This document shows, one piece after another, positions 1-64,000 of a stretch of 64,000 bases of DNA. Made by a program: the position numbers and the translations under genes. The notes under the pieces are model-generated. The model was not told the origin of the DNA, did no database searches, and saw nothing but the letters and a program-made list of their open reading frames with translations. Origin of the DNA: Xenorhabdus koppenhoeferi (GTDB lineage: Bacteria; Pseudomonadota; Gammaproteobacteria; Enterobacterales; Enterobacteriaceae); contig NZ_FPBJ01000001.1 in the NCBI RefSeq assembly GCF_900116635.1, positions 124,001 through 188,000 of the forward strand, in the 5' to 3' direction. Numbering within the stretch: position 1 is the stretch's first letter; each line of letters begins with the position of its first letter.

Positions 1-24
1 TTCAGTGTCTAATTGGATTTATTT

Positions 25-74
25 TACATTGCAATAAATAGCCGCCTTTACAGGCGGCTATTTATTGCAATGTA
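25..74. terminator. Perfect 23-bp hairpin, probable terminator
   Basis: Two 23-base arms (25-47 and 52-74) are perfect reverse complements around a 4-base loop (TTAC). The GC-rich core sits next to the loop and the outer part is AT-rich. It lies just past the end of the minus-strand btuF gene, so it probably ends the mtnN-btuF transcript. The symmetry means it could also serve a gene to the left of the window. Confidence 0.75.
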
Positions 75-111
75 TTTTCAGTCTTAAGAAGCAGGGCAAC
101 CGAATATTATC

Positions 112-981
112 CTATTTTGCTTGATTGTTGGAATAATTTAACTGCTTACAAAGTTGCTCTGTTGCCAGAATAACCCTCGGCCCTGCACGGCCAAACCAGT
201 CATCATTGAGTGCGATGATTTTAATATTCATGTGTGGTTGCCAGAAATCTGCGATCCGTTGTTTATGCTCTTCCGTACCGCCCATTACTATTACTTCCGG
301 TTTGCGGGTAAGTACTTGCTCACGATTAACCTGTGGCCACGGAACAGGGCTGTCAGCAAAAATATTTTTTCCACCGCATGTGGAGACAATCTCACTTTGA
401 ATAGTGTGATCAGATGACGTAAAAATAGGATTCATGCCAAACTGTAAAAATACCCGTTTAGGGGACTGGTTGGCATAATCCTGTTTTAATTGATTGAACG
501 CCTGACGAATATCTGAAGCGGATTTTTTGGCTATATCGGGACTTGGGCTATAGTCAGCAAGACGCACCAACTCTGCCGCGACATCTTCTACTTTTTTCAC
601 ATCAGAATAAAAAATCGGAATACCCAAAGCGGCCAGTTGTTCCAGCGGGCGCTGGGGATTGCCGCCACGCCATGCCAGAATCAGGTCAGGTTTCAGTGAG
701 ATAATCCGTTCTACATTAATGCCTTGCCAATCCGCAACTTGTTCCAGTTTTTTGGCTGCTCCGGGATAATCGGAATAAGCACTGACTGCAATAAGCTGAT
801 CGCCCAGTCCTGCTGCGTAAGCAAGCTCTGTTGTTGATGGCGCAAGGCTGATAACGCGGGAAGCGGCGGCATAAAGTGGAGCACTGAAACCATATAAAAA
901 GCTATATAAAAAACCATATAGAAGAAATGAAAAGGCCAGCCAAATAGATCGGTGAAGGGCAATCTTCAAAAATGATTTCAT
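112..981 (-). CDS. btuF: Vitamin B12 ABC-transporter periplasmic binding protein BtuF
   Basis: This 289-residue protein should capture cobalamin in the periplasm and hand it to the BtuCD transporter. Residues from about 41 on align with E. coli Btu[18 protein letters not shown], then [33 protein letters not shown] and [12 protein letters not shown]. The N-terminus is a signal peptide with an unusually long hydrophobic stretch containing repeated Phe-Leu-Tyr-Gly-Phe units before an Ala-rich cleavage region. It starts 27 bases after the mtnN stop on the same strand, so the two are probably co-transcribed. The family identity is secure; the exact signal cleavage site is not. Confidence 0.9.
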
Positions 982-1008
982 TATTTATGATCCACTTTAA
1001 ATGATGAT

Positions 1009-1707
1009 TTACTGCTTGCTGAGTTCGGACAGCATGGCGTTGACCATCCGTGTGGATTCACGGGCGGCGACAACCAAAAACTCATCAAAGCTGATATGGG
1101 ATTCTTGATCGGCAATATCAGAGATGGCACGGACAACAACAAACGGAACTTTATACTGGTGACAAACATGACCAATCGCTGCTGCTTCCATTTCAACCGC
1201 CGCGACTTTCGGGAAAGTCTCTCGAATACGTGCCAGTGATTCTGAGCCATTGATAAAGGCATCACCGCTGCAAACCAGACCACGAATAGCATTCAGCTCA
1301 AGGGATTGGATACACTTTTCTGCCAGAGTGATTAATTGTTTATCAGCAATAAAAGCGGGTGGACATTGTGCCATTTGTCCTGATTCATAACCAAAAGCGG
1401 TAAGGTCAGCATCGTGGTAGCGGACTTCTTCGGAAACTACGATATCCCCCACTTTCAACTTAGGGTCAAGACCACCTGCTGAACCTGTGTTGATCACAAT
1501 ATCTGGCTGGCAATGTTCAATCAACAAAGTGGTTCCAAGTGCCGCTGAGACTTTACCGATACCGGATTTCAGTAAGGCGATATCAACGCCATTCAGTTTG
1601 CCGGTATAGATTTCACAACCGCCTCGTGACAATATTTGCAGACCTTCAATCTGGTCACGCAATAGAGTCACTTCTTGTTCCATTGCACCTATTACACCTA
1701 CTTTCAT
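1009..1707 (-). CDS. mtnN: 5'-methylthioadenosine/S-adenosylhomocysteine nucleosidase
   Basis: This cytosolic enzyme cleaves methylthioadenosine and S-adenosylhomocysteine to adenine and the thioribose or ribosyl moiety, in methionine salvage and autoinducer-2 precursor formation. The protein begins [20 protein letters not shown] and contains [29 protein letters not shown] and [12 protein letters not shown], the substrate-binding and catalytic segments of the family (the nucleosidase Asp is in VRAISDIAD). I chose the ATG at 1707 over an in-frame ATG at 1758 because it gives 232 residues, the length of the E. coli enzyme. It precedes btuF in an apparent operon and is divergent from dgt. Confidence 0.93.
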
Positions 1708-16518: not shown

Positions 16519-16650
16519 TATATACACGATGGATTTCAAGTTGCATTGCAACGGCAAGAGAGCAAATCCCCGGGAGCATAGATAACTATGTGACCGGGGT
16601 GAGCGAGCGCAGCCAACAAAGAGGCAGTTTGAAAGACGAAGTGTATATAC
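16519..16650. repeat. Complete ERIC/IRU intergenic repeat
   Basis: This 132-base element has inverted-repeat ends (TATACAC... on the left, ...GTGTATA on the right). Its central core reads AAATCCCCGGGAGC...GTGACCGGGGTGAGCG, the hallmark of enterobacterial repetitive intergenic consensus sequences. It lies between the divergent aldehyde dehydrogenase and lipoprotein genes. The rest of that gap (16234-16518) is AT-rich with no recognisable gene. Confidence 0.85.
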
Positions 16651-51004: not shown

Positions 51005-51356
51005 GATAAATTGTGGTTTATCATGCATCTTCAAGTTTATTGCGTATATGATTTATAATTAACGTTTACATTAGTTATATAATTTTATTATTATTAAATT
51101 ATATTTAATCAGGTTAGTTAATGATTTTTACGTATATGAATATATACTAATCAATATAACCAATAATAAGTAATTTTCTTATGGTGAAATCTGTTCCCTA
51201 TAGAATTCAGTTAGGCCCATTTTGCAGAGAATTATCAAAGTAAACCTAATATTAATTAATGATCAGGAGGTTGATTTCTCTACGTAACTGTTTGATTTTT
51301 AAATTAAATAGTTTACATACAACATTAATTCCATATGGACAAAATACAGCAGGGAT
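51005..51356. other. AT-rich region upstream of the NRPS gene
   Basis: These 352 bases are strongly AT-rich (runs such as ATTATTATTAAATTATATTT near 51090) and show no supported gene. They probably contain the NRPS promoter; I could not single one out. AT-rich leaders of this kind are typical H-NS targets, which is inference. Confidence 0.4.
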
Positions 51357-51620
51357 ATGGAATATCTTCCTCCAGTTCACTGTATTAATTGTTTATTCCA
51401 TTTTCAGAAAAATAATTATCTAAGAATTGTTAATTATGCGGCTATTAACAGGGCTATTACATCAGCACCCAATAAAAAGTGTTGTCTGAGGATCTTAATT
51501 GATACTTGGCACGCCCCCTCTTTCTTTGCAGAAAGAAATAGGGGAAAAGCATTTGTTGTGACTGTTAAGAGTGAAATCTTTCAAATAACTAAGAGATTCG
51601 TTGAGGTAATAAGTAGATGA
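51357..51620 (+). CDS. Small hypothetical ORF overlapping the NRPS start (doubtful)
   Basis: An 87-codon frame runs from an ATG at 51357 to a TGA that overlaps the NRPS ATG in the arrangement ATGA (51617-51620). The product is Cys- and aromatic-rich at the start (PVHCINCLFHF) and resembles no family I know, including MbtH proteins. There is no clear ribosome-binding site. It may be a chance frame or a short leader coupled to the NRPS. Confidence 0.25.
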   Translation: MEYLPPVHCINCLFHFQKNNYLRIVNYAAINRAITSAPNKKCCLRILIDTWHAPSFFAERNRGKAFVVTVKSEIFQITKRFVEVISR

Positions 51621-54600
51621 AAGCTAGCATGGCTAAAAAGGAAATTATCTTTGACGCGGGATTAGTACAAATACAGCCAGAAAAGGTCAGTGACGACATA
51701 TCTGTTCAGAAACTTAATTTGTTGTCAGAAGCTGAACGCACACTGCTGTTGGAAACCTGGAATGCCACTGAGACCGTCTATCCTGATCAGTTAGGTATCC
51801 ATCAGTTGTTTGAACGACAAGTAGAGAAAACCCCGACAGCGACGGCATTAATAGCAGGGGATAAGACCCTGAGTTATGCGGAATTGAATGCTCGTGCTAA
51901 TCGACTGACTCATCAACTAATTAAACAAGGGATTGACCCGAATGATCATGTAGCAATCCTGTTAGAACGATCTATTGAGTTAGTGGTGGCTCAATTGGCT
52001 ATTCTCAAGGCGGGAGCGGTTTATATCCCTATCGACCCCAATGTACCGGACAAGAGAAAAAACTGGCTGATAAGAGATTGTTTAGCCAAATTGTTACTCA
52101 CCGATACACAAACGGCTATCCCGACTGACTTGGATGTTTCGCTAATTCGTCTTTCTGATGAGGCAGACGTGAGCAAGGAAGAGGAAGGCCTTAATCCTGA
52201 TTTACTTTGTTCCAATACTGCGCCAGCGTATATCATGTACACCTCCGGCTCAACTGGCACCCCAAAAGGGGTGATCGTGCCTCACCGCGCTGTGGCCCGA
52301 CTCGTTATTAATAATGGCTATCTTGAAATTGAAACCAATGACCGGGTTGCTTTCGCGGCTAATCCTGCATTCGATGCCAGCACCTTTGAAGTGTGGGCCC
52401 CTTTGCTCAATGGCGGGGCACTGGTGGTGATCGACCACACCACTTTGTTGACACCACCGGAATTTATACAGGCATTAGACAATTATCAAATTAATACGCT
52501 ATGGTTAAGCGCCGGCCTGTTTAACCGGCTGGCGACGGAGTTGCTCCCGGTTATGCCGCAGTTGAAAAACTTAATTATCGGCGGCGATATCCTTGACCCT
52601 CATGTGATTACCCAAGTTTTACGCAACAATCCACCTCAGCAGTTATTGAATGGCTATGGGCCGACCGAAGGCACCACCTTTACCACTACGTACCGGATTA
52701 AGGCTTTAACTGCAGGAACAACCAGTATTCCGATTGGCCGGCCCATTGCCAACACACGGGTTTACTTACTGGATGAACAGGGCCAGCCAGTGCCATCGGG
52801 AATGATTGGCGAGATTTATGTGGGTGGCGACGGGGTGGCCTGCGGTTATCTCAATCGCCCTGAATTGACCGCTGAACGCTTTCTGGCTGATCCATTCAGT
52901 GACGTCCCGGGTGCGCGGATGTATCGGACGGGTGATTTAGCCCGCTATCTGCCTGATGGTAATTTGGAGTTTCTGGGGCGCAACGATCAGCAGGTTAAAA
53001 TCCGTGGTTTCCGTATTGAACCGGGGGAAATTGAAACCCGACTGGCGGAATATCCGGCAGTGCGTGAAGCCGTGGTATTGGCATCAGGCGAAGGACAAGA
53101 CAAGCAGTTAGTGGCTTATGTACTGGCAGAGCCGGATAACGAATTACCTGCCCACTTGCGTGAACACCTCAGTGCGCGGTTACCTGATTATATGGTGCCG
53201 GTGGCTTTTGTACGGTTGGATATATTCCCGCTGACTGCCAATGGCAAACTGGATCGCCGGGCGTTGCCGGCACCGGGTGAAGAGGCCTTTGCCCGTCAGG
53301 TTTACGCTGCACCGCAAGGGGAGCGGGAAATTACATTAGCGACTCTCTGGCGTGAATTACTGGGTATTGAGCAGATAAGCCGACATGACAGCTTCTTTGC
53401 CCTGGGCGGTCATTCATTGCTCGGCATACGCATGATTGAACAGCTACGTCATTTAGGTCTGACACTGGCTGCCCGCGACCTGTTCCAGTCTCCAATACTG
53501 GCGGAGCTGGCCCAAACTCTGGGGCAACATCAGGTTGTGACAGTGCCGCCGAATCTCATTACCGCGGCGACCACGGCACTGACACCGGCGATATTACCGT
53601 TGATTGATTTGACTCAACCTGACATTGATCACATCATCAGACAAGTGCCGGGTGGGGCAGCTAATATTCAGGATATCTATGCACTGTCACCGTTGCAGGA
53701 CGGTATCTTGTTTCACCATGTGCTGAAGAAAGGAGGTGATCCTTACTTGCTGGCTTATCCGATGATCTTTGCTGACCGTGATTTGCTGGATCGCTATTTA
53801 TTCGCGGTACAACAGGTGGTTGACCGCCATGATATTTTGCGTACCGCTTTTATCTGGCAGGAATTGTCTGTTCCGGCGCAAGTGGTCTGGCATCAGGCTC
53901 CATTGTCAGTCACTGAACTCATGTTGAACCCGGCTGACGGGTCGGTGAGTGATCAACTGGCACAACGTTTTGATCCGCGCCAATATCGTCTCGATCTCAG
54001 TCAAGCGCCGTTATTACGCTTTGTAATAGCACAGGAAACGGATGGCCGCTGGTATGTACTGCAATTGCAACATCATCTGATTGGTGACCACACCACGCTG
54101 GAAGTCATGAACCGCGAAGTTCGGGCTTATCTTGACGGACAGGAAGATGATTTACCGGCACCTGTACCTTTCCGTAATCTGATCACTCAGGCCCACCAAG
54201 GGGCGAGTCAGGAAGCGTACACTCGCTTCTTTACCGACATGCTGGCGGAGGTGGATGAACCGACGTTACCGTTTGGGCTGACTGAGGTACATCGAGATGG
54301 TTCGCAGGTCATACAAGCGCACCGGAAGCTGCCTCCTGTGCTGAATAACCGTCTGCGTGCGCAGGCGAGACGTCTGGGCGTCAGTCTGGCAACCCTGTGT
54401 CATTTAGCTTGGGCACAAGTATTGTCGCATACCAGCGGACAAGAGAAAGTGGTATTCGGCACTGTGCTGTTTGGACGCATGGCGGCGGGGGAAGTTGCTG
54501 ACAGCGGTATGGGGCTGTTTATCAATACATTACCACTGAGGCTGGATATAGATGGTACCTCGGTACATGATAGCGTCAGGATGGCACATGCCGGATTAGC

Positions 54601-57600
54601 CGGATTGCTGGATTATGAACATGCCTCACTGGCATTGGCCCAGCGTTGCAGTGGTATACAGAGCGGCACACCGCTTTTTAGTGCCCTGTTGAATTACCGG
54701 CATAATGAACAACCAATGACACCGCATGAGAGGATGCCGGGTATTGAATTTCTTGGTGAACAGGAGAGTACTAACTACCCGTTTGTTCTGTCGGTTGAGG
54801 ATGGTATTGACACATTGGGTCTGACTGCTCAGGTGGTGGAACCGTTTGATTCAGAAAGAATATGCGGTTATATGCAGCAGGCGCTGGAAAGTCTGGCGGA
54901 TGCCCTTGAACTGGCGCCGGAAACGCCGGTACGGGCACTTAATATTTTGCCTGCATCAGAACGCACGTTATTGCTGGAAACCTGGAGCACGGCTGAAACT
55001 CCTTATCCTGAACAACTGTGCATCCATCAGTTAATTGAGCAACAGGCGGAGAAAGCTCCGGATGCCACGGCACTGGTGTTTGAAAATCAGACACTCAGCC
55101 ACGGACAATTGAATGCCAGTGCTAACCAGCTTGCCCACCAACTGATTGCCTTGGGTGTCGTGCCAGATCAACGGGTGGCGATTTGCATGGCAAGTTCACC
55201 CGCGCGGGTAATAGCGGTGTTGGCAGTGCTGAAAGCGGGTGGGGCCTATGTGCCGTTAGATCCGGCTTATCCGGGAGAACGACTGTCACATATCCTGACC
55301 GATGCAGCCCCAGAGATATTGCTGGCGGACAGTACCGGACGAGCCGCATTGGGTGAACAGGCACTTGCAAGACTGACAGTATTGGACCCAACTATCTTAC
55401 CTGATCAGCCAGACCGCAATCCACAGGTTGCTGCCTTGACCTCCCGCCATCTCGCCTACGTGATTTACACGTCTGGATCGACCGGGACACCCAAAGGGGT
55501 GATGATTGAACATCGTGGGTTGATCAATCTTATTCAGGATAAAATCACCCGATTCGGCATTCATCCCGCTAGCCGAATGTTGCAGTTTGCTTCATTTGGC
55601 TTTGATGCCGGTGTCTGGGAAATCATGATGGCATTAGGCAGCGGAGCCTGTCTGGTTATTCCGGCCGAGACCGTTCGTCAAGACTCGCGTCGCCTTTGGC
55701 ATTATCTGGAAGAACAATCGGTGACACATGCCTGCCTGACTCCTGCTCTGTTGCGGGATGGGGCTGATTTGCCAGCGATAATGATAAAACCGACATTGAT
55801 ATTGGGTGGTGAAGCCCCCAGCCCTGTGCTAATACGGTCACTAAGTCGTCAGGCAACCCTGTTTAATGCCTATGGCCCGACAGAAATTACGGTCTGTGCG
55901 ACCAGTTGGCGTTGCCCGTCACACTATACTGATATGCTGGTTCCCATTGGACGCCCAACGGCGAACACCCGCATTTACCTGCTGGATAACTACGGCCAGC
56001 CAGTCCCATTAGGGGCGGTGGGAGAATTGTATATTGGTGGGGATGGTGTCGCTCGTGGCTATCTCAATCGTCCGGATCTGACTGACGAGCGCTTTCTGGC
56101 TGATCCATTTAGTGATGTGCCTGATGCCCGGATGTACCGGACCGGGGATTTAGTGCGCTACCTGCCGGACGGCAATCTGGTGTTTGTTGGCCGTAACGAC
56201 CAGCAGATTAAAATCCGTGGTTTCCGCATTGAGCCGGGTGAAATTGAAACCCGGTTGGCAGAACATCCTATGGTGCATGAGACGCGGGTAGTGGCAGTGA
56301 CTTTGGGGGATGAGCAGGATAAACGTTTGGTTGCCTATATTGTGGCCGAAGCGGATAGCGGATTAGCGGCCATTTTGCACGCCTATTTGAGCGCGATGTT
56401 ACCTGAATATATGGTGCCGGCCGCTTTTGTGTGCCTGGAGGCCTTCCCGCTGACACCAAACGGTAAATTGGATCATCAGGCATTGCCCGCGCCAGGGGAA
56501 GATGCTTTCGCCCGCCAGATTTATGTTGCGCCACAAGGAGAAATGGAAATCGCAATAGCGGCTATCTGGCGTGAATTACTGGGTGTTGAACAGATCGGCC
56601 GGTATGATAATTTCTTTTCCTTGGGCGGACATTCTCTGTTAGCGGTACGGATGATGAACCGGATAACCGCTTTCGGTGTCGATCTGCCGTTGGCCACGTT
56701 GTTTATGTCTCCGTCACTGGTGGCATTTACCGAAAAGATCTGCGCACAACGTCATGCGAACAGTGATCAATTGCCTGAAATCAGGCCAATATCCCGTGAT
56801 CGTGTTTTGCCTTTATCGTTTGGTCAACAGCGTTTGTGGTTTCTGGCGCAATTTGAGGAGATCAGTGACACCTATCATATTCCGACAGCCCTGCGCTTAC
56901 GTGGACGGCTTGACCTTTCTGCCTGGCAACAGGCCCTGAAGCGCCTGTTTGCCCGCCACGAAGCACTGCGTTCCGTTTTTATCACTGTAGATGGTCAGCC
57001 TCAGGTTGAATTGTTGCCGGCGGAATTTGGTCTGCCGATGCAAAAATACGATTTGCGTAAAGCCTCTGACGTTGATGAACAGCTTGCGCATTTGTGCGCA
57101 CAGGAAGCCAAAACACCGTTTGATCTTACCCGTGGGCCTTTAATTCGTTGCGCACTGGTCCGACTGGCCGAAGAGGAGCATTTATTCCTGCTGACTCAGC
57201 ATCATATCATCTCTGATGGTTGGTCTTTAGGGATACTGGAATCAGAACTGACGGCACTTTATGTTGCTTGTCTGAATCAACAACCTGATCCGCTGCCGCC
57301 ATTGACTATTCAATATCCTGATTATGCTGTCTGGCAGCGGCAGGTATTCTCTGATGAAGGCGTACAGGCGCAGAGTGATTACTGGCGTCGTACACTGGCA
57401 GATGCTCCGGTATTACTTGAATTGCCGCTGGACAGACCGCGACCCTCGCAGCAATCATTTGCCGGCGGTCAGGTAGCCGTACACTTTGATGCCACACTGG
57501 TACAGGCCCTGAAACATTTGGGGCAACCGCACGGTACCACACTGTTTATGACGCTGTTGACCGCTTGGGCTACGTTGTTATCGCGCCTGTCTGGTCAGGA

Positions 57601-60600
57601 TGATGTGGTGATTGGTATACCGAGTGCCAACCGCAACCGGCGGGAAATTGAGTCACTGCTTGGTTTCTTTGTCAACACACTGGCGTTGCGTATTGATTTA
57701 TCCGGTATGCCGGATGTGGTCACATTGCTACAGCGTGTGCGGCAGACGACACTAGGGGCACAGGAACATCAGGACTTGCCTTTTGAGCAAGTGGTAGAAA
57801 TTGTTCAGCCGCCGCGCAGACCAGAGCATACGCCACTGTTTCAGGTGATGTTTGCCTGGCAAGAAAGTGAAACAAAGGAATGGCAATTACCGGAACTAGC
57901 GGTAACCCCCTTTGAGCTGGGATACGACATAGCGAAATTCGACCTGCAACTGGAATTAACGGAGAAGGCGGGCGAAATTGTCGGAGTGCTGAATTATTCT
58001 TCTGCCCTGTTCGACCCTGAAACCATCGAAAGGCAGATGGGTTATTTGCAGGCTATATTGCGGGCAATGGTGAACCAGCCTCAACAACCTGTTACGGCCA
58101 TTGATATTTTGTCGTCCACGGAACGCACATTGTTGTTAAAAACCTGGAATGCCACTGAAACCGTGTATCCTGAATCGTTATGTATTCATCAACTTTTTGA
58201 ACAGCAAGTGGAAAAAACTCCGCAGGCAACAGCCCTGATCACAAGAGAAAAACACCTGAGCTACAGTGAACTGAATGTATGGGCAAACCGGCTGGCTCGT
58301 CAGTTAATCGGGCAAGGTGTTGGCTCCGGCGATCATATTGCGCTGTTGTTTGAGCGCTCCATCAAGCTGGTGGTGGCGCAACTGGCAGTACTTAAAGCTG
58401 GTGCAGTTTATGTCCCTCTGGACCCTGATATGCCGGATGGACGGAAAAACTGGCTGATCAATGACTGTGCCGCCAAATTGTTACTTACCGATACACAGAC
58501 AGCAATTCCGACTGACTTGATTGTCCCGTTGTTGCGTCTTTCCGATGAAAGCGAGGCGGTGAGTGAACAAGCCAGCGGACAAAAAAATAGTATTAACCTT
58601 GATTTACCGCGTACCAGCACGGAACTGGCCTATATTATGTACACCTCTGGCTCAACCGGCACTCCGAAAGGCGTTCTGGTACCGCACCGTGCCGTGGCTC
58701 GGCTGGTCATCAATAACGGTTACGTAGCCATCGAACCGGATGATCGGGTGGCCTTTACCGCGAATCCGGCTTTTGATGCCAGCACCTTTGACATCTGGGC
58801 ACCGTTGCTTAATGGGGGCGCGTTGGTCGTGATTGATCGTGCCATGTTATTGACACCGGTGGAACTCATCCGGGCTGTACAAAACCATGGCATTACAGTG
58901 ATGTGGCTGACTGTCGGGTTGTTTAACAGGTTGTTCACTGAGCTATCTCCGGCTCTGCCGCAGATAAAAACCCTGATTGTCGGGGGTGATGTTCTTGATC
59001 CTCATGTTATCAGTCAGGTATTGAATAACAGCCCACCACAACAACTCTTAAATGGCTATGGACCCAGTGAAGGCACCACTTTTACGACAACATACTGTAT
59101 CAGGGCCTTAGCACAAGGTGCGATAAACATCCCTATTGGCCGACCCATTGCCAATACGCGGGTTTATCTGCTGGACAATCATGGTCAGCCAGTTCCGTTG
59201 GGAGCAATCGGTGAGATTTATATTGGGGGTGACGGGGTGGCCTGTGGCTATCTGAACCGCCCTGATTTGACGGCTGAACGTTTTCTGGCGGATTCATTCA
59301 GTGATCAACCGAATGCCCGCATGTACCGGACCGGAGATTTGGCCCGTTACCTGCCGGACGGCAATCTGGTCTTTATGGGTCGCAATGACCAACAGGTGAA
59401 AATCCGGGGTTTCCGCATTGAACCGGGAGAAATCGAAGCGCGACTGGTTGAACACGCTGAGGTAAGTGAAGCACTGGTCCTGGCATTGGGGGGCGGGCAG
59501 GATAAACGTCTGGTGGCTTATATCGTAGCACAAGCAAATGACGGGCTGGCAACCAGACTGCGTGAACACCTGAATGATATTTTGCCTGACTATATGGTGC
59601 CGGCAGCTTTTGTGCGTTTGGATGCCTTTCCGCTGACGCCTAACGGCAAGCTGGATCGCCGGTCGCTGCCGGCACCTGATCAGCATGCCTTTGCCCACCA
59701 GGTTTACCAAGCGCCGCAAGGGGAAATTGAAATAGCATTAGCGGCTATCTGGCGGGAATTACTGAATGTTGAGCGAATTGGCCGGCATGACAGTTTCTTT
59801 GCTTTGGGCGGGCATTCGCTGCTGGCGGTCAAGATGATTGAACGTTTACGGCGTATTGGTTTAGGCCTGTCAGTACAAACGCTGTTCCAGCATCCGACAT
59901 TAAGTGTATTAGCCCAATCTTTGGCTCAACATTGTGAAATGAGTGTGCCTGACAACGTTATTACCCCGGATGCGGCGGTACTAACGCCAGCCATGTTGCC
60001 GCTGATTGATCTCGCTCAATCTGACATTGATTGTATTGTTGAGCAAGTGCCGGGTGGGATCGCCAATATTCAGGATATTTACGCGCTGTCACCGTTACAG
60101 GATGGCATTTTATTCCACCATTTGCTGGCCAATGAGGGCGATCCCTATCTGCTGATCATGCAACAGGCTTTTGCTGATCGACATTTACTCGACCGTTATC
60201 TGGCTGCGGTTCAACAGGTGGTTGACCGTCATGACATCTTGCGTACTGCTTTTATCTGGCAGGGATTATCTGTGCCGGCACAGGTCGTTTGCCGTCAGGC
60301 ACCTTTGTTAGTGACGGAATTGACACTCAACCCGGCTGATGGGCTAATCAGTGACCAACTGGCCCGACGTTTCGATCCGCGTCAACATCGTATTGACCTG
60401 AATCAGGCACCATTATTACGTTTTGTTGTGGCACAAGAGAGCGATGGCCGTTGGATTGTGTTGCAATTGTTGCATCACCTGATTGGCGACCATACCACGC
60501 TGGAGGTGATGAACAACGAAGTTCAGGCTTTTCTCACCGGACGAACAGACAGCTTGCCGGCACCGGTGCCGTTCCGCCATCTCGTGGCACAGGCTCGGCA

Positions 60601-63600
60601 GGGTGTCAGTCAGGCAGAACATGCCCGTTTCTTTACCGATATGTTGGCTGAGGTAGATGAGCCAACGCTGTCATTTGGATTGTCGGAAGTGCACTATGAT
60701 GGTTCACAGGTAACTGAATCTCACCGGATGCTGGCAGCGGAACTGAATGATCGCTTGCGTAATCAGGCGCGGCGCTTGGGTGTCAGTGTAGCGGCGCTGT
60801 GCCATCTGGCTTGGGCGCAAGTGTTATCGCGTTCCAGTGGGCAGCAGAAGGTAGTATTCGGCACAGTCTTGTTTGGACGCATGACAGCAGGTGAAGGGTC
60901 TGATGGTGGCATGGGCTTGTTTATCAATACCTTGCCGTTGCGTTTGGATATCGATCATACCTCGGTGCGGGACAGTGTACGCGCAGCACATGGCCGACTG
61001 GCAGGGTTGCTGGAACATGAACACGCGTCACTGGCGCTGGCACAGCGTTGCAGCGGCGTAGCCAGTGGAACGCCTCTTTTTAATGCGCTGTTGAACTACC
61101 GGCATAATACGCAGCCGATAACACCAAATGAAATGGTGAGCGGCATCGAATTCCTTGGCGCACAGGAACGGACTAACTATCCGTTTGTGTTGTCGGTAGA
61201 GGATGGCGGCACTGATCTGGGGCTAACGGCTCAAGTGGTACAGCCATTTGATCCGGAACGGATATGCGGCTATATGCAGCAAGCGTTAGAAAGTCTGGCA
61301 GAAGCACTTGAGCAGGCACCTGATATGTCGGTACAGCAGTTAGAAATTCTGCCGGAAACTGAACGCACATTGTTGTTAAAAACCTGGAATGCCACTGAAA
61401 CCGTGTATCCTGAATCGTTATGTATTCATCAACTTTTTGAACAGCAAGTGGAAAAAACTCCGCAGGCAACAGCCCTGATCACAAGAGAAAAACACCTGAG
61501 CTACAGTGAACTGAATGTATGGGCAAACCGGCTGGCTCGTCAGTTAATCGGGCAAGGTGTTGGCTCCGGCGATCATATTGCGCTGTTGTTTGAGCGCTCC
61601 ATCAAGCTGGTGGTGGCGCAACTGGCAGTACTTAAAGCTGGTGCAGTTTATGTCCCTCTGGACCCTGATATGCCGGATGGGCGGAAAAACTGGCTGATCA
61701 ATGACTGTGCCGCCAAATTGTTACTTACCGATACACAGACAGCAATTCCGACTGACTTGATTGTCCCATTGTTACGTCTTTCCGATGAAAGCGAGGCGGT
61801 GAGTGAACAAGCCAGCGGACAAAAAAATAGTATTAACCTTGATTTACCGCGTACCAGCACGGAACTGGCCTATATTATGTACACCTCTGGCTCAACCGGC
61901 ACTCCGAAAGGCGTTCTGGTACCGCACCGTGCCGTGGCTCGGCTGGTCATCAATAACGGTTACGTAGCCATCGAACCGGATGATCGGGTGGCCTTTACCG
62001 CGAATCCGGCTTTTGATGCCAGCACCTTTGACATCTGGGCACCGTTGCTTAATGGGGGCGCGTTGGTCGTGATTGATCGTGCCATGTTATTGACACCGGT
62101 GGAACTCATCCGGGCTGTACAAAACCATGGCATTACAGTGATGTGGCTGACTGTCGGGTTGTTTAACAGGTTGTTCACTGAGCTATCTCCGGCTCTGCCG
62201 CAGATAAAAACCCTGATTGTCGGGGGTGATGTTCTTGATCCTCATGTTATCAGTCAGGTATTGAATAACAGCCCACCACAACAACTCTTAAATGGCTATG
62301 GACCCAGTGAAGGCACCACTTTTACGACAACATACTGTATCAGGGCCTTAGCACAAGGTGCGATAAACATCCCTATTGGCCGACCCATTGCCAATACGCG
62401 GGTTTATCTGCTGGACAATCATGGTCAGCCAGTTCCGTTGGGAGCAATCGGTGAGATTTATATTGGGGGTGACGGGGTGGCCTGTGGCTATCTGAACCGC
62501 CCTGATTTGACGGCTGAACGTTTTCTGGCGGATTCATTCAGTGATCAACCGAATGCCCGCATGTACCGGACCGGAGATTTGGCCCGTTACCTGCCGGACG
62601 GTAATCTGGAATTTCTCGGCCGTAATGACCAGCAGGTCAAAATCCGGGGTTTCCGCATTGAACTGGGGGAAATTGAAGCCCGGTTGGCAGAACATCCGGC
62701 GGTGCGTGAGGCTGCAGTGCGGGTGTTGGGTGAAGGGCAGGATAAACATCTGGTGGCTTATTATGTAATGGTGCAAGCTAATAATATAGCGGCGTCTGCG
62801 GATAACGGATTGGCGACCCAATTACATCGTCATTTGAGAACCTTGTTGCCTGACTACATGATTCCGGCTGCTTTTGTGCAGTTGGATGCCTTTCCGTTGA
62901 CCCCGAACGGCAAACTGGATCATCGGGCGTTGCCTGTGCCTGAGCAGCACACCTTTGCCCACCAAATCTATGAAGCACCGCAAGGGGAAACGGAAATCGT
63001 TATGGCAACTATCTGGCGTGAATTACTGGGCGTTGAGCAGATTAGCCGGCAAGACAACTTCTTTACCTTGGGAGGACACTCTCTGCTTGCCATGCGGATG
63101 ATCAGTCTGGCCGCAGAGAGAGGGTTGATTTGTTCATTGAATAATCTGTTCCAATTTCCGGTGCTGGCGGAACTGGTGGCAGAGATCACACTAGATCCGC
63201 TATCTCAATCACAAAGCAGTGCTGTACCGATACGACCCGATGGCACCGAACCGCCACTATTCTTTATACCTAGCGGCATGGAAGATTATTCCTATGTTTT
63301 CGGGCTGGCTCAGCATATTCAGGCGGATTACCCGATTTATGCGCTACCTTGGCCATTAATCAATGAAGCACTGCCGACCATTGAAGCCTTGGCAGTCAGA
63401 ATGATTACCTTTATGAAAGCGGTGCGACCAGAAGGACCGTACCGGATATACGGCTATTCTTCTGGTGGTGTACTGGCTTACGCCATTGCTCAACAACTCT
63501 TGAATGCTGGAGAGACAGTTGACTTTTTAGGCCTGATTGATACACCGGCTCCTCACCATCTCAAGGCACTGGTCATTCAACCTAAACTTCATTTTCTGGC

Positions 63601-64000
63601 TGATTTGGCAAGGCAGGCAATAGATGAACATCCTCAGGAAATTGCGTCATTATATCAGAAAATGGATGAGCTGAATTTGGTGCAATTTATTGCCGCTGCA
63701 CAGAAGTTGGCATTATACCCATCTAATTTGCGCCCTGATTTAATTGCAAGACGCTGGGAGCAGATAGGGAACTATGTTGAAATGGTCAAAGATTATAAGC
63801 CGAAAGCCCTTGCAATAACCTTGCATCAATTCTATGCCATGGAATCTTATCCGCAGATCCCGTTTGTTACAGATATTGAGCTACAGTCCGTAACAATGAA
63901 ACCGTCGTTAGGTTGGGAGCAGATAATTCCCGACTCTTCGCTACAATTAACTCCTGTTCCTGGAGATCATTTTAGCCTGATGGAAGATAGCGAAAATAAA
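51617..64000 (+). CDS. xtpS: Four-module non-ribosomal peptide synthetase, xenotetrapeptide synthetase-like (3' end beyond window)
   Basis: A single open frame of 4128 codons starts at the ATG at 51617 (GAGGT 9 bases upstream; a second ATG follows at codon 5) and runs off the right edge. Domains in order: A1, T1 (Ser600), dual E/C2 (His700, His819), A2, T2 (Ser1673), C3 (HHIISDG, His1862), A3, T3 (Ser2734), dual E/C4 (His2834, His2953), A4, T4 (Ser3822), TE (Ser3948 in GYSSGG, Asp3975, His4118). Ten-residue A-domain codes read by alignment to GrsA are DAFWIGGTFK for A1, A3 and A4 (Val) and DAWCIGAVCK for A2 (probably Leu). The predicted product is D-Val-L-Leu-D-Val-L-Val, probably cyclised by the TE, which fits xenotetrapeptide cyclo(vLvV) of Xenorhabdus nematophila. 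The gene name rests on that match. Only the last few codons after the TE His are missing. Confidence 0.85.
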   Translation, partial: MKASMAKKEIIFDAGLVQIQPEKVSDDISVQKLNLLSEAERTLLLETWNATETVYPDQLGIHQLFERQVEKTPTATALIAGDKTLSYAELNARANRLTHQLIKQGIDPNDHVAILLERSIELVVAQLAILKAGAVYIPIDPNVPDKRKNWLIRDCLAKLLLTDTQTAIPTDLDVSLIRLSDEADVSKEEEGLNPDLLCSNTAPAYIMYTSGSTGTPKGVIVPHRAVARLVINNGYLEIETNDRVAFAANPAFDASTFEVWAPLLNGGALVVIDHTTLLTPPEFIQALDNYQINTLWLSAGLFNRLATELLPVMPQLKNLIIGGDILDPHVITQVLRNNPPQQLLNGYGPTEGTTFTTTYRIKALTAGTTSIPIGRPIANTRVYLLDEQGQPVPSGMIGEIYVGGDGVACGYLNRPELTAERFLADPFSDVPGARMYRTGDLARYLPDGNLEFLGRNDQQVKIRGFRIEPGEIETRLAEYPAVREAVVLASGEGQDKQLVAYVLAEPDNELPAHLREHLSARLPDYMVPVAFVRLDIFPLTANGKLDRRALPAPGEEAFARQVYAAPQGEREITLATLWRELLGIEQISRHDSFFALGGHSLLGIRMIEQLRHLGLTLAARDLFQSPILAELAQTLGQHQVVTVPPNLITAATTALTPAILPLIDLTQPDIDHIIRQVPGGAANIQDIYALSPLQDGILFHHVLKKGGDPYLLAYPMIFADRDLLDRYLFAVQQVVDRHDILRTAFIWQELSVPAQVVWHQAPLSVTELMLNPADGSVSDQLAQRFDPRQYRLDLSQAPLLRFVIAQETDGRWYVLQLQHHLIGDHTTLEVMNREVRAYLDGQEDDLPAPVPFRNLITQAHQGASQEAYTRFFTDMLAEVDEPTLPFGLTEVHRDGSQVIQAHRKLPPVLNNRLRAQARRLGVSLATLCHLAWAQVLSHTSGQEKVVFGTVLFGRMAAGEVADSGMGLFINTLPLRLDIDGTSVHDSVRMAHAGLAGLLDYEHASLALAQRCSGIQSGTPLFSALLNYRHNEQPMTPHERMPGIEFLGEQESTNYPFVLSVEDGIDTLGLTAQVVEPFDSERICGYMQQALESLADALELAPETPVRALNILPASERTLLLETWSTAETPYPEQLCIHQLIEQQAEKAPDATALVFENQTLSHGQLNASANQLAHQLIALGVVPDQRVAICMASSPARVIAVLAVLKAGGAYVPLDPAYPGERLSHILTDAAPEILLADSTGRAALGEQALARLTVLDPTILPDQPDRNPQVAALTSRHLAYVIYTSGSTGTPKGVMIEHRGLINLIQDKITRFGIHPASRMLQFASFGFDAGVWEIMMALGSGACLVIPAETVRQDSRRLWHYLEEQSVTHACLTPALLRDGADLPAIMIKPTLILGGEAPSPVLIRSLSRQATLFNAYGPTEITVCATSWRCPSHYTDMLVPIGRPTANTRIYLLDNYGQPVPLGAVGELYIGGDGVARGYLNRPDLTDERFLADPFSDVPDARMYRTGDLVRYLPDGNLVFVGRNDQQIKIRGFRIEPGEIETRLAEHPMVHETRVVAVTLGDEQDKRLVAYIVAEADSGLAAILHAYLSAMLPEYMVPAAFVCLEAFPLTPNGKLDHQALPAPGEDAFARQIYVAPQGEMEIAIAAIWRELLGVEQIGRYDNFFSLGGHSLLAVRMMNRITAFGVDLPLATLFMSPSLVAFTEKICAQRHANSDQLPEIRPISRDRVLPLSFGQQRLWFLAQFEEISDTYHIPTALRLRGRLDLSAWQQALKRLFARHEALRSVFITVDGQPQVELLPAEFGLPMQKYDLRKASDVDEQLAHLCAQEAKTPFDLTRGPLIRCALVRLAEEEHLFLLTQHHIISDGWSLGILESELTALYVACLNQQPDPLPPLTIQYPDYAVWQRQVFSDEGVQAQSDYWRRTLADAPVLLELPLDRPRPSQQSFAGGQVAVHFDATLVQALKHLGQPHGTTLFMTLLTAWATLLSRLSGQDDVVIGIPSANRNRREIESLLGFFVNTLALRIDLSGMPDVVTLLQRVRQTTLGAQEHQDLPFEQVVEIVQPPRRPEHTPLFQVMFAWQESETKEWQLPELAVTPFELGYDIAKFDLQLELTEKAGEIVGVLNYSSALFDPETIERQMGYLQAILRAMVNQPQQPVTAIDILSSTERTLLLKTWNATETVYPESLCIHQLFEQQVEKTPQATALITREKHLSYSELNVWANRLARQLIGQGVGSGDHIALLFERSIKLVVAQLAVLKAGAVYVPLDPDMPDGRKNWLINDCAAKLLLTDTQTAIPTDLIVPLLRLSDESEAVSEQASGQKNSINLDLPRTSTELAYIMYTSGSTGTPKGVLVPHRAVARLVINNGYVAIEPDDRVAFTANPAFDASTFDIWAPLLNGGALVVIDRAMLLTPVELIRAVQNHGITVMWLTVGLFNRLFTELSPALPQIKTLIVGGDVLDPHVISQVLNNSPPQQLLNGYGPSEGTTFTTTYCIRALAQGAINIPIGRPIANTRVYLLDNHGQPVPLGAIGEIYIGGDGVACGYLNRPDLTAERFLADSFSDQPNARMYRTGDLARYLPDGNLVFMGRNDQQVKIRGFRIEPGEIEARLVEHAEVSEALVLALGGGQDKRLVAYIVAQANDGLATRLREHLNDILPDYMVPAAFVRLDAFPLTPNGKLDRRSLPAPDQHAFAHQVYQAPQGEIEIALAAIWRELLNVERIGRHDSFFALGGHSLLAVKMIERLRRIGLGLSVQTLFQHPTLSVLAQSLAQHCEMSVPDNVITPDAAVLTPAMLPLIDLAQSDIDCIVEQVPGGIANIQDIYALSPLQDGILFHHLLANEGDPYLLIMQQAFADRHLLDRYLAAVQQVVDRHDILRTAFIWQGLSVPAQVVCRQAPLLVTELTLNPADGLISDQLARRFDPRQHRIDLNQAPLLRFVVAQESDGRWIVLQLLHHLIGDHTTLEVMNNEVQAFLTGRTDSLPAPVPFRHLVAQARQGVSQAEHARFFTDMLAEVDEPTLSFGLSEVHYDGSQVTESHRMLAAELNDRLRNQARRLGVSVAALCHLAWAQVLSRSSGQQKVVFGTVLFGRMTAGEGSDGGMGLFINTLPLRLDIDHTSVRDSVRAAHGRLAGLLEHEHASLALAQRCSGVASGTPLFNALLNYRHNTQPITPNEMVSGIEFLGAQERTNYPFVLSVEDGGTDLGLTAQVVQPFDPERICGYMQQALESLAEALEQAPDMSVQQLEILPETERTLLLKTWNATETVYPESLCIHQLFEQQVEKTPQATALITREKHLSYSELNVWANRLARQLIGQGVGSGDHIALLFERSIKLVVAQLAVLKAGAVYVPLDPDMPDGRKNWLINDCAAKLLLTDTQTAIPTDLIVPLLRLSDESEAVSEQASGQKNSINLDLPRTSTELAYIMYTSGSTGTPKGVLVPHRAVARLVINNGYVAIEPDDRVAFTANPAFDASTFDIWAPLLNGGALVVIDRAMLLTPVELIRAVQNHGITVMWLTVGLFNRLFTELSPALPQIKTLIVGGDVLDPHVISQVLNNSPPQQLLNGYGPSEGTTFTTTYCIRALAQGAINIPIGRPIANTRVYLLDNHGQPVPLGAIGEIYIGGDGVACGYLNRPDLTAERFLADSFSDQPNARMYRTGDLARYLPDGNLEFLGRNDQQVKIRGFRIELGEIEARLAEHPAVREAAVRVLGEGQDKHLVAYYVMVQANNIAASADNGLATQLHRHLRTLLPDYMIPAAFVQLDAFPLTPNGKLDHRALPVPEQHTFAHQIYEAPQGETEIVMATIWRELLGVEQISRQDNFFTLGGHSLLAMRMISLAAERGLICSLNNLFQFPVLAELVAEITLDPLSQSQSSAVPIRPDGTEPPLFFIPSGMEDYSYVFGLAQHIQADYPIYALPWPLINEALPTIEALAVRMITFMKAVRPEGPYRIYGYSSGGVLAYAIAQQLLNAGETVDFLGLIDTPAPHHLKALVIQPKLHFLADLARQAIDEHPQEIASLYQKMDELNLVQFIAAAQKLALYPSNLRPDLIARRWEQIGNYVEMVKDYKPKALAITLHQFYAMESYPQIPFVTDIELQSVTMKPSLGWEQIIPDSSLQLTPVPGDHFSLMEDSENK
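51700..53540 (+). other. NRPS module 1: A1-T1 (loading, predicted Val)
   Basis: The protein opens without a condensation domain, so this is the initiation module. A1 shows YTSGSTGTPKG (from residue 208), FDASTFEVW, NGYGPTEG (from 345), YRTGDLARY (from 436) and NGKLDRRALP. The code residues are D-A-F-W-I-G-G-T-F-K, a recognised valine code. T1 has FALGGHSLLG with the phosphopantetheine Ser600. Confidence 0.85.
53560..56750 (+). other. NRPS module 2: dual E/C2-A2-T2 (predicted Leu)
   Basis: C2 carries the N-terminal HHVLKKGGD (His700-701), the extra His motif that marks dual epimerisation/condensation domains, plus HHLIGDHTT (His819-820) in place of the usual HHxxxDG. It should epimerise residue 1 before coupling. 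A2 differs strongly from the other A domains (FDAGVWEIM, HACLTPALL, NAYGPTEITVC; code D-A-W-C-I-G-A-V-C-K), which I read as leucine with moderate confidence. T2 has FSLGGHSLL with Ser1673. Confidence 0.8.
56770..59920 (+). other. NRPS module 3: LCL C3-A3-T3 (predicted Val)
   Basis: C3 begins PLSFGQQRLWFLAQFE and has the canonical HHIISDGWS (His1862-1863), so it accepts an L-configured donor and residue 2 stays L. A3 has the valine code D-A-F-W-I-G-G-T-F-K and contains the first copy of the 1241-base repeat. T3 (Ser2734) precedes a dual E/C domain. Confidence 0.85.
58121..59361 (+). repeat. Near-identical A-domain repeat, copy 1 (A3)
   Basis: This 1241-base stretch recurs at 61361-62601, exactly 3240 bases downstream and in frame. 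I count three mismatches by eye (58441, and two near 58528 and 58534). It runs from the C-A linker (ERTLLLKTWNATET) to just after the YRTGDLARYLPDG motif. Confidence 0.95.
59980..64000 (+). other. NRPS module 4: dual E/C4-A4-T4-TE (predicted Val, release)
   Basis: E/C4 has HHLLANEGD (His2834-2835) and HHLIGDHTT (His2953-2954), so residue 3 should be D. A4 contains the second repeat copy and the same valine code; its C-terminal subdomain differs, with GFRIELGEIE and an insertion around VQANNIAASADNG. T4 has FTLGGHSLL with Ser3822. The type I TE shows GYSSGG (Ser3948), LIDTPAP (Asp3975) and GDHFSLM (His4118), so release by hydrolysis or macrocyclisation is intact. Confidence 0.85.
61361..62601 (+). 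repeat. Near-identical A-domain repeat, copy 2 (A4)
   Basis: Second copy of the segment at 58121-59361. Both edges are abrupt. Upstream the C4 and C3 ends are unrelated. Downstream, from 62602, the A3 and A4 C-terminal parts diverge at once, with many silent and coding differences. Confidence 0.95.

Follow-up and report, generated by a model that had tools for sequence, protein, structure and literature searches.

A doubled valine-type adenylation core in the xtpS gene of Xenorhabdus koppenhoeferi, very probably homogenised by gene conversion

How do two adenylation (A) domains of a single gene come to share more than a kilobase of almost identical DNA? The question is raised by xtpS, a xenotetrapeptide-type nonribosomal peptide synthetase (NRPS) gene of Xenorhabdus koppenhoeferi. 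It lies in a stretch of 64,000 nucleotides (contig NZ_FPBJ01000001.1, positions 124,001 to 188,000), hereafter called the window, and the block recurs in its third and fourth A domains, A3 and A4. We consider it very probable that homologous recombination within xtpS, that is, gene conversion, produced the near-identical blocks as part of a history of three steps. In the first, a five-module gene of the gxpS type lost the module gxpS A4sub-T4-C/E5-A5core, and its modules 3 and 4 acquired a foreign Val-type A core; the comparison shows both changes, and the order of events is inferred. In the second, the core pair, being common to the window genome and Xenorhabdus nematophila, dates from about the time of their split or before. 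In the third, one copy later overwrote the other in the window lineage, from the C-A linker to just after YRTGD, most likely A3 overwriting A4. The gene and the blocks are:

51617 to 64000, + strand: xtpS, xenotetrapeptide-type NRPS gene of 4148 amino acids (aa), which exits the window (its last codon extends to contig base 188060, equivalent to 64060 in window numbering).
58121 to 59361, + strand: homogenised block in A3, reaching from the C-A linker across Acore to shortly after YRTGD; presumed donor of the last conversion (sequence comparison, subdomain and core trees).
59266 to 59361, + strand: A3 segment +1146..+1241, common to A4 and unlike X. nematophila; polarity marker (alignments).
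61361 to 62601, + strand: A4 copy of the homogenised block; presumed recipient (offset comparison, alignment with X. nematophila).

Compared at an offset of 3240 bp, the two blocks differ at 3 of 1241 bases (58441, A/G; 58528, G/A; 58534, G/A), all at third codon positions and synonymous, and 827 bp from 58535 to 59361 have no mismatch to the A4 copy. As 3240 bp make 1080 codons, the copies are in frame. An earlier note on this DNA had described two copies 3240 bases apart, about 99.8% identical and extending from the C-A linker to just after YRTGD, all of which holds at the exact offset. It had also described sharp divergence at both edges, which is true of the left edge only: in ungapped windows identity rises from 27/100 at 58001-58100 to 92/100 at 58101-58200, and then stays at 98-100 up to 59300. 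The right edge is gradual, with 54/60, 53/60, 38/60 and 42/60 in successive 60-bp gapped windows from +1200 (such positions are counted from the block start in each copy), the ordinary paralogue level being reached over about 100 bp. Apart from the A3/A4 pair, nothing in the genome matches the block better than A1 of xtpS, at only 71%, so that the similarity is not due to chance. A scan of viral contigs with the block gave no relative.

In the 4128 aa that lie inside the window, Pfam detects four AMP-binding, three Condensation, four PP-binding and four AMP-binding_C domains and one Thioesterase. Together with the motif positions and the matches of the C domains to C2, C3 and C4 of gxpS, these give the XtpS order A-T-C/E-A-T-C-A-T-C/E-A-T-TE, in which the dual C/E label of the condensation domains is our assumption. 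The pocket letters of A1 to A4 are DAFWIGGTF, DAWCIGAVC, DAFWIGGTF and DAFWIGGTF, which we take to stand for Val, Leu, Val and Val, consistent with vLvV. X. nematophila XtpS is reported to make cyclo(vLvV) (PMC10443035), and the Xtp cluster has been reported in one further strain, Vera (PMC10892061). The window gene is orthologous to the published X. nematophila xtpS, with a collinear alignment and a divergence at synonymous sites (dS) of about 0.10; the motif NATETVYPES (PMC10443035) is present in both proteins, and the C-A linker printed for XtpS (PMC8362031) is found in X. nematophila A3. By analogy, both block modules of the window enzyme should load Val, and the predicted product is the cyclo(vLvV) of X. 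nematophila.

When was the core copied? Among 30 Xenorhabdus genomes, including the window's own (G000), X. nematophila ATCC 19061 (G020) is the only one with further block matches above 80% over its length among the matches listed: two, at 95%, 3240 bp apart. This A3/A4 pair has the same left edge, but its similarity runs for 1701 bp, to the middle of the T domain, and the same 1241 bp differ at 41 sites. Over 413 codons, the X. nematophila copies, with the same pocket letters, are separated by 22.5 synonymous and 18.5 replacement changes, against three synonymous and zero nonsynonymous differences in the window (3/304 silent and 0/935 replacement sites; dS 0.0099). The dS between A3 and A4 of X. 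nematophila is 0.077, close to that between species in the core (0.079-0.081 over +1..1140) and in the scaffold (about 0.08-0.10: A1-C3 0.101, T3-C/E4 0.103, T4-TE 0.084); C3 shows ordinary silent differences. The excess of silent identity between window A3 and A4 is significant (Fisher test on rounded counts, p 4e-5 against between-species and 1e-4 against within-X. nematophila). Synonymous identity in the tract is thus far above the orthologue level, as expected of intragenic gene conversion. The A4 tract is, moreover, replaced between native flanks, C/E4 on the left and, on the right, a G020-like remnant followed by a subdomain of gxpS-A5 type.

Since the pair is common to both species, the doubling of the core must date from around their split, if not from before it. 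The window lineage re-copied it later, at roughly an eighth to a tenth of the split divergence. The earlier note had proposed recent in-gene copying of an A core that homogenised both Val pockets; such copying is borne out, and the low dS marks it as recent, but the pair in X. nematophila, with 41 of 1241 sites different, shows that it was not a single recent event.

Which copy was the donor? The earlier note had suggested comparing the same gene in related strains, and the mosaic right edge, set against X. nematophila, does point to A3 as the most likely donor. Over +1146..1241, window A3 and A4 are alike and unlike G020 (71/90 and 69/90 in a 90-column window). Over +1242..1400 there are 43 variable sites: at 30 of them window A4 agrees with both G020 copies and A3 does not, 4 show the reverse, 5 are species differences and 4 are of other kinds. 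To the right of these sites A4 passes into a gxpS-A5-type subdomain, and A3 continues as a gxpS-A3-type one. The simplest and most likely account is that A3 overwrote A4 up to +1241; on the left the conversion tract ends together with the homology itself, and on the right it reaches about 100 bp inside sequence specific to A3. The segments around the blocks are:

56801 to 58135, + strand: C3 condensation domain, gxpS-like scaffold directly 5' of the block (Pfam Condensation best stretch aa 1729-2173; window comparison with gxpS).
59362 to 59760, + strand: C-terminal subdomain of A3 with the beginning of T, of native gxpS-A3 type (tree support 99; 80-92% to A3 of the three nearest gxpS genes).
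62602 to 62700, + strand, right end approximate: what is left in A4 of the older foreign tract, agreeing with both A3 and A4 of X. nematophila (30/43 variable sites).
62740 to 62974, + strand, left end approximate: C-terminal subdomain of A4, of native gxpS-A5 type and longer by 8 residues, bounding the lost module on its far side (tree support 99).
62975 to 64000, + strand: T4 and thioesterase, orthologous to gxpS T5-TE (85-90% DNA identity, best hits).

The eight extra residues in the A4 subdomain region (62602-62974), YVMVQANN, are absent from X. nematophila XtpS.

Where did the core come from? Core and subdomain trees were built from 82 of 95 collected domains, 13 of other substrate types having been left out beforehand. 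In the core tree, window A3 and A4 are sisters (support 100) inside an xtpS clade, and the four xtpS A3/A4 domains join Val-type domains of X. khoisanae, X. indica and BG5 (99). In the subdomain tree, window A3 groups with gxpS A3 (99) and window A4 with gxpS A5 (99), while the two subdomains of X. nematophila A3/A4 fall beside X. khoisanae and X. indica (86). Because the two trees disagree, the window corresponds to the common natural pattern, in which the core is swapped and the subdomain kept, and X. nematophila to the exception. On these groupings, each foreign core of the window joins its position-matched native subdomain, and the foreign piece of X. nematophila extends to mid-T. The nearest core relative among the compared domains is the second A domain of a 7745-aa NRPS of X. 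khoisanae (80%). This species (G016), with 80% identity and the same 3240 spacing, was considered as the source of a third xtpS orthologue and rejected, the gene being this different NRPS. The 7745-aa NRPS gene (L046) also contains a 3239-bp tandem repeat, at offset 3171 and 90% identity. When the X. nematophila core was compared with 60 genomes of the family, matches at E<=1e-100 were found in two, G000 and G009, both Xenorhabdus.

The native parts of xtpS lead to gxpS. GxpS is a five-module enzyme reported in 72% of Xenorhabdus and 93% of Photorhabdus (PMC9177418); the window gene, with its four AMP-binding domains, is not GxpS proper. We took loci from 14 of the 29 other genus genomes, picked by block matches: five-module genes of 5150-5256 aa are present in 13 of them (L114-L126), and the remaining locus (L127) is truncated. 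Judged on L114 and on the two best hits in each 180-bp window, xtpS is collinear with gxpS at 80-93% DNA identity to the best match outside the A3 and A4 cores, and lacks one module relative to it, the gap falling between C4 and the last A subdomain. At the protein level, xtpS C4 is 83-89% identical to gxpS C4, and 26-78% to gxpS C5. In 11 of the 13 gxpS genes, the pocket letters at positions 3-5 are not Val-type. The locus, too, is marked by DNA upstream of the gene:

51054 to 51616, + strand: 5' leader of xtpS, whose last 260 bp match DNA upstream of gxpS genes and mark the gxpS locus (matches of at least 100 bp at 12 of 13 gxpS loci).

The thirteenth locus (L116) matches only the G020 xtpS leader, over 103 bp, and the downstream flank of xtpS matches only 2 of the 13 loci (L114 and L123). 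One query with the gxpS A4 region found no separate gxpS in G000 or G020. The A1-C3 scaffold tree, rooted at its midpoint, nests xtpS next to L123 and then to L114 and L115, each with support 100, and in the T-TE tree xtpS joins L123 (100), then L115 (90), then L114 (42). Because xtpS is nested among five-module gxpS genes, four modules are the derived state; both sampled xtpS lineages, window and X. nematophila, keep four, and the module-sized loss belongs to the earlier history of the gene. In the portions of the open-licence full-text literature consulted, we found neither a derivation of XtpS from GxpS nor a copying of its A3/A4 cores described.

As a separate observation on gxpS, C5 of four genes (L121, L122, L125 and L126) is only 26-27% identical to xtpS C4, compared with 77-78% in the other nine; because the C type at C5 is different, the predicted stereochemistry may change in these four.

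Several points weigh against parts of this history. Timing and direction rest on two xtpS sequences, since there is one genome per species, and the direction from A3 to A4 is drawn from contiguity and parsimony. The affinity of +1140..1200 to gxpS A3 is weak, at 77% compared with 75% for both A1 and BG5. At its start the block is, over 60 bp, similar to A1 (86%) and A4 (82%) but not to A3 (57%) when set against the three nearest gxpS genes, so that module 4 may have been the source, and module 3 the target, of the first copying. Support is weak for the sisterhood of G020 A3 and A4 in the core tree (56) and for the grouping with L114 in the TE tree (42). The core-only exchange of the window and the exchange of core, subdomain and half of T in X. 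nematophila may each have been the first. Finally, the genome is a 91-contig draft and was analysed as assembled.

In such a draft, an assembly artefact comes to mind, in which the copies truly differ and one consensus exaggerates their identity, all the more as the 827-bp identical run would exceed a short read. However, the same pair stands at the same offset in X. nematophila, a 4,432,590-bp chromosome; a difference of 41 sites, as found there, should be separable by ordinary reads; unique A4 sequence is found less than 100 bp from +1146..1241, which should let reads anchor that segment; and three differences between the copies were retained. We therefore consider this explanation improbable. 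Alternatively, both window cores could have been imported separately from one outside donor. Imports into xtpS did occur, but the left edge and the +1146..1241 marker fall at the same base in both copies, and such shared ends make two separate imports even less probable than the artefact.

Purifying selection on the Val pocket could in principle hold two old copies alike, and the pocket letters are indeed the same in both. However, silent sites are nearly as uniform as replacement sites, the X. nematophila copies have accumulated changes of both kinds behind the same letters, and A1 carries all nine letters with a core only 70% identical to those of A3 and A4. The earlier note would have taken an equal block identity in orthologues as a sign of constraint; the one orthologue available has 41 differences against 3. 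This explanation is very unlikely, and so, to the same degree, is a recent duplication of the whole module by unequal exchange: the spacing is exactly one module, but the A3 and A4 flanks are mutually different and match their positional X. nematophila orthologues (94-100% in most 90-column windows) as well as gxpS positions 3-4 and 5, only the A block being common to both modules. Constraint, module duplication and outside import were thus rejected on silent sites, native flanks and shared ends, respectively.

Could in-gene conversion also have shortened the gene? Tentatively, copying of an A core within a gene may first change the residue incorporated, after which the near-identical copies would drive in-frame loss of a whole module. 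It is conceivable, though rather doubtful, that xtpS is a fossil of such a copy-then-delete route from a cyclic-pentapeptide to a cyclic-tetrapeptide line, the thioesterase adapting later to the smaller ring, and that the 99.8% pair reflects a process still running. The intermediate expected under this scenario, a copied A4/A5 core pair, was absent from the 13 gxpS genes (A4/A5 cores 52-84% identical).

A second, independent in-gene copy of a Val-type core occurs in gxpS of the griffiniae group. In L121 (G010) and L122 (X. griffiniae VH1), the A2 and A4 cores are 95% identical, rising to 98-99% over their central 900 bp, whereas the subdomains reach 74-77%. L125 and L126 hold a different A4 core between the same flanks yet keep the Val-type A2, so that A2 was the donor into A4 in the former two. 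The edges of the copy lie at about +170 and +1250..1300, the right one close to that of the window. We surveyed 88 gene stretches for further in-gene copies (338 domains, 468 distinct pairs; L079 is a stretch of the same X. griffiniae contig as L122). Thirty-three pairs reached at least 88%, of which 12 with alignments of at most 11 bases were dropped, leaving 21; lower-scoring alignments may have failed likewise. Seven of the 21 reach 93% core identity (L040, L045, L053, L105, L112, L121 and L122), five of them with subdomains below 85% (L045, L053, L112, L121 and L122). As the loci were fetched for similarity to the xtpS core, these seven do not represent an unbiased rate. In the NRPS stretch of Photorhabdus heterorhabditis (L105), A domains two and four show 99.9% identity across the central 900 bp of their cores, and 100% in the part of the subdomain that was sampled.

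Two observations lie outside this argument. A 127-bp, ERIC-like repeat at 16521-16647 is also found inside the X. nematophila xtpS leader and upstream of the L124 gxpS, with no match in the window's own xtpS leader; a repeat pattern compared with the window gave no match. The window genome, 100% complete, measures 3.18 Mb; of the other 29 in the genus, 28 measure 3.6-5.3 Mb, and the last, of 3.0 Mb, is 82% complete.

What does the history of xtpS mean for its product and for engineering? The T-TE stretch of xtpS is 75-86% identical to the 13 gxpS ones, and at 11 columns both xtpS depart from a residue that all 13 gxpS have in common; by position, nine of these columns lie in TE. Tri- and tetrapeptides are reportedly not cyclised by the GxpS TE (PMC9315016). 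Given these TE differences, xtpS offers a natural comparison for ring size, and the 11 columns are candidate residues, of putative role, for why one TE closes four-residue rings. XtpS and GxpS both serve as parts in NRPS engineering (PMC9315016, PMC8362031). If XtpS is a naturally shortened and re-pocketed GxpS, it would offer field-tested junctions in one scaffold, in the C-A linker, after YRTGD and in mid-T, in a core-only version in the window genome and a version with core, subdomain and half of T in X. nematophila. The near-identical repeat moreover predicts measurable instability; the 3240-bp deletion foreseen in the earlier note would be in frame.

Recombination of A cores is already known as a process; the case of xtpS is unusually readable. 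A 2024 paper in Science reportedly deals with recombination sites in T domains. The closest system is XtpS of X. nematophila (PMC10443035, PMC8362031), which is like the window gene in orthology, domain order, A3/A4 core pair and C-A linker; its A3/A4 identity, however, is 96-97% and extends to mid-T, whereas that of the window is 99.8%, ends after YRTGD and leaves native subdomains. GxpS (PMC9177418, PMC9315016) shares with xtpS a homologous leader and the scaffold A1-T-C/E-A2-T-C3, T3-C/E4 and T5-TE, but has one more module, and its pockets at positions 3-5 are mostly not Val-type. Natural exchanges, according to Baunach 2021 (PMC8097286) and Calcott 2020 (PMC7486941), mostly concern the Acore and leave interfaces and subdomain in place, with breakpoints concentrated in two places, between C and A and around the substrate-binding pocket; laboratory swaps of partial A domains were mostly inactive (Calcott 2020, PMC7486941). 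The window differs from these natural exchanges in having the same core twice in one gene, later re-homogenised, and the X. nematophila exchange, which includes the subdomain and part of T, is what Baunach et al. (PMC8097286) call an exception. In cyanobacterial assembly lines, modules are lost along A-T-C units (PMC12184294), a deletion that, as in xtpS, ignores C-A-T borders; the genes and organisms are others, and the parts of that report consulted tie no A-core copy to the loss. Conversion of the mcyA A2 core, leading to [D-Leu1]microcystin (PMC3640908), likewise replaced up to about 1 kb over the substrate pocket, whereas the account of it consulted states no donor and describes no in-gene repeat of the same core such as xtpS contains.

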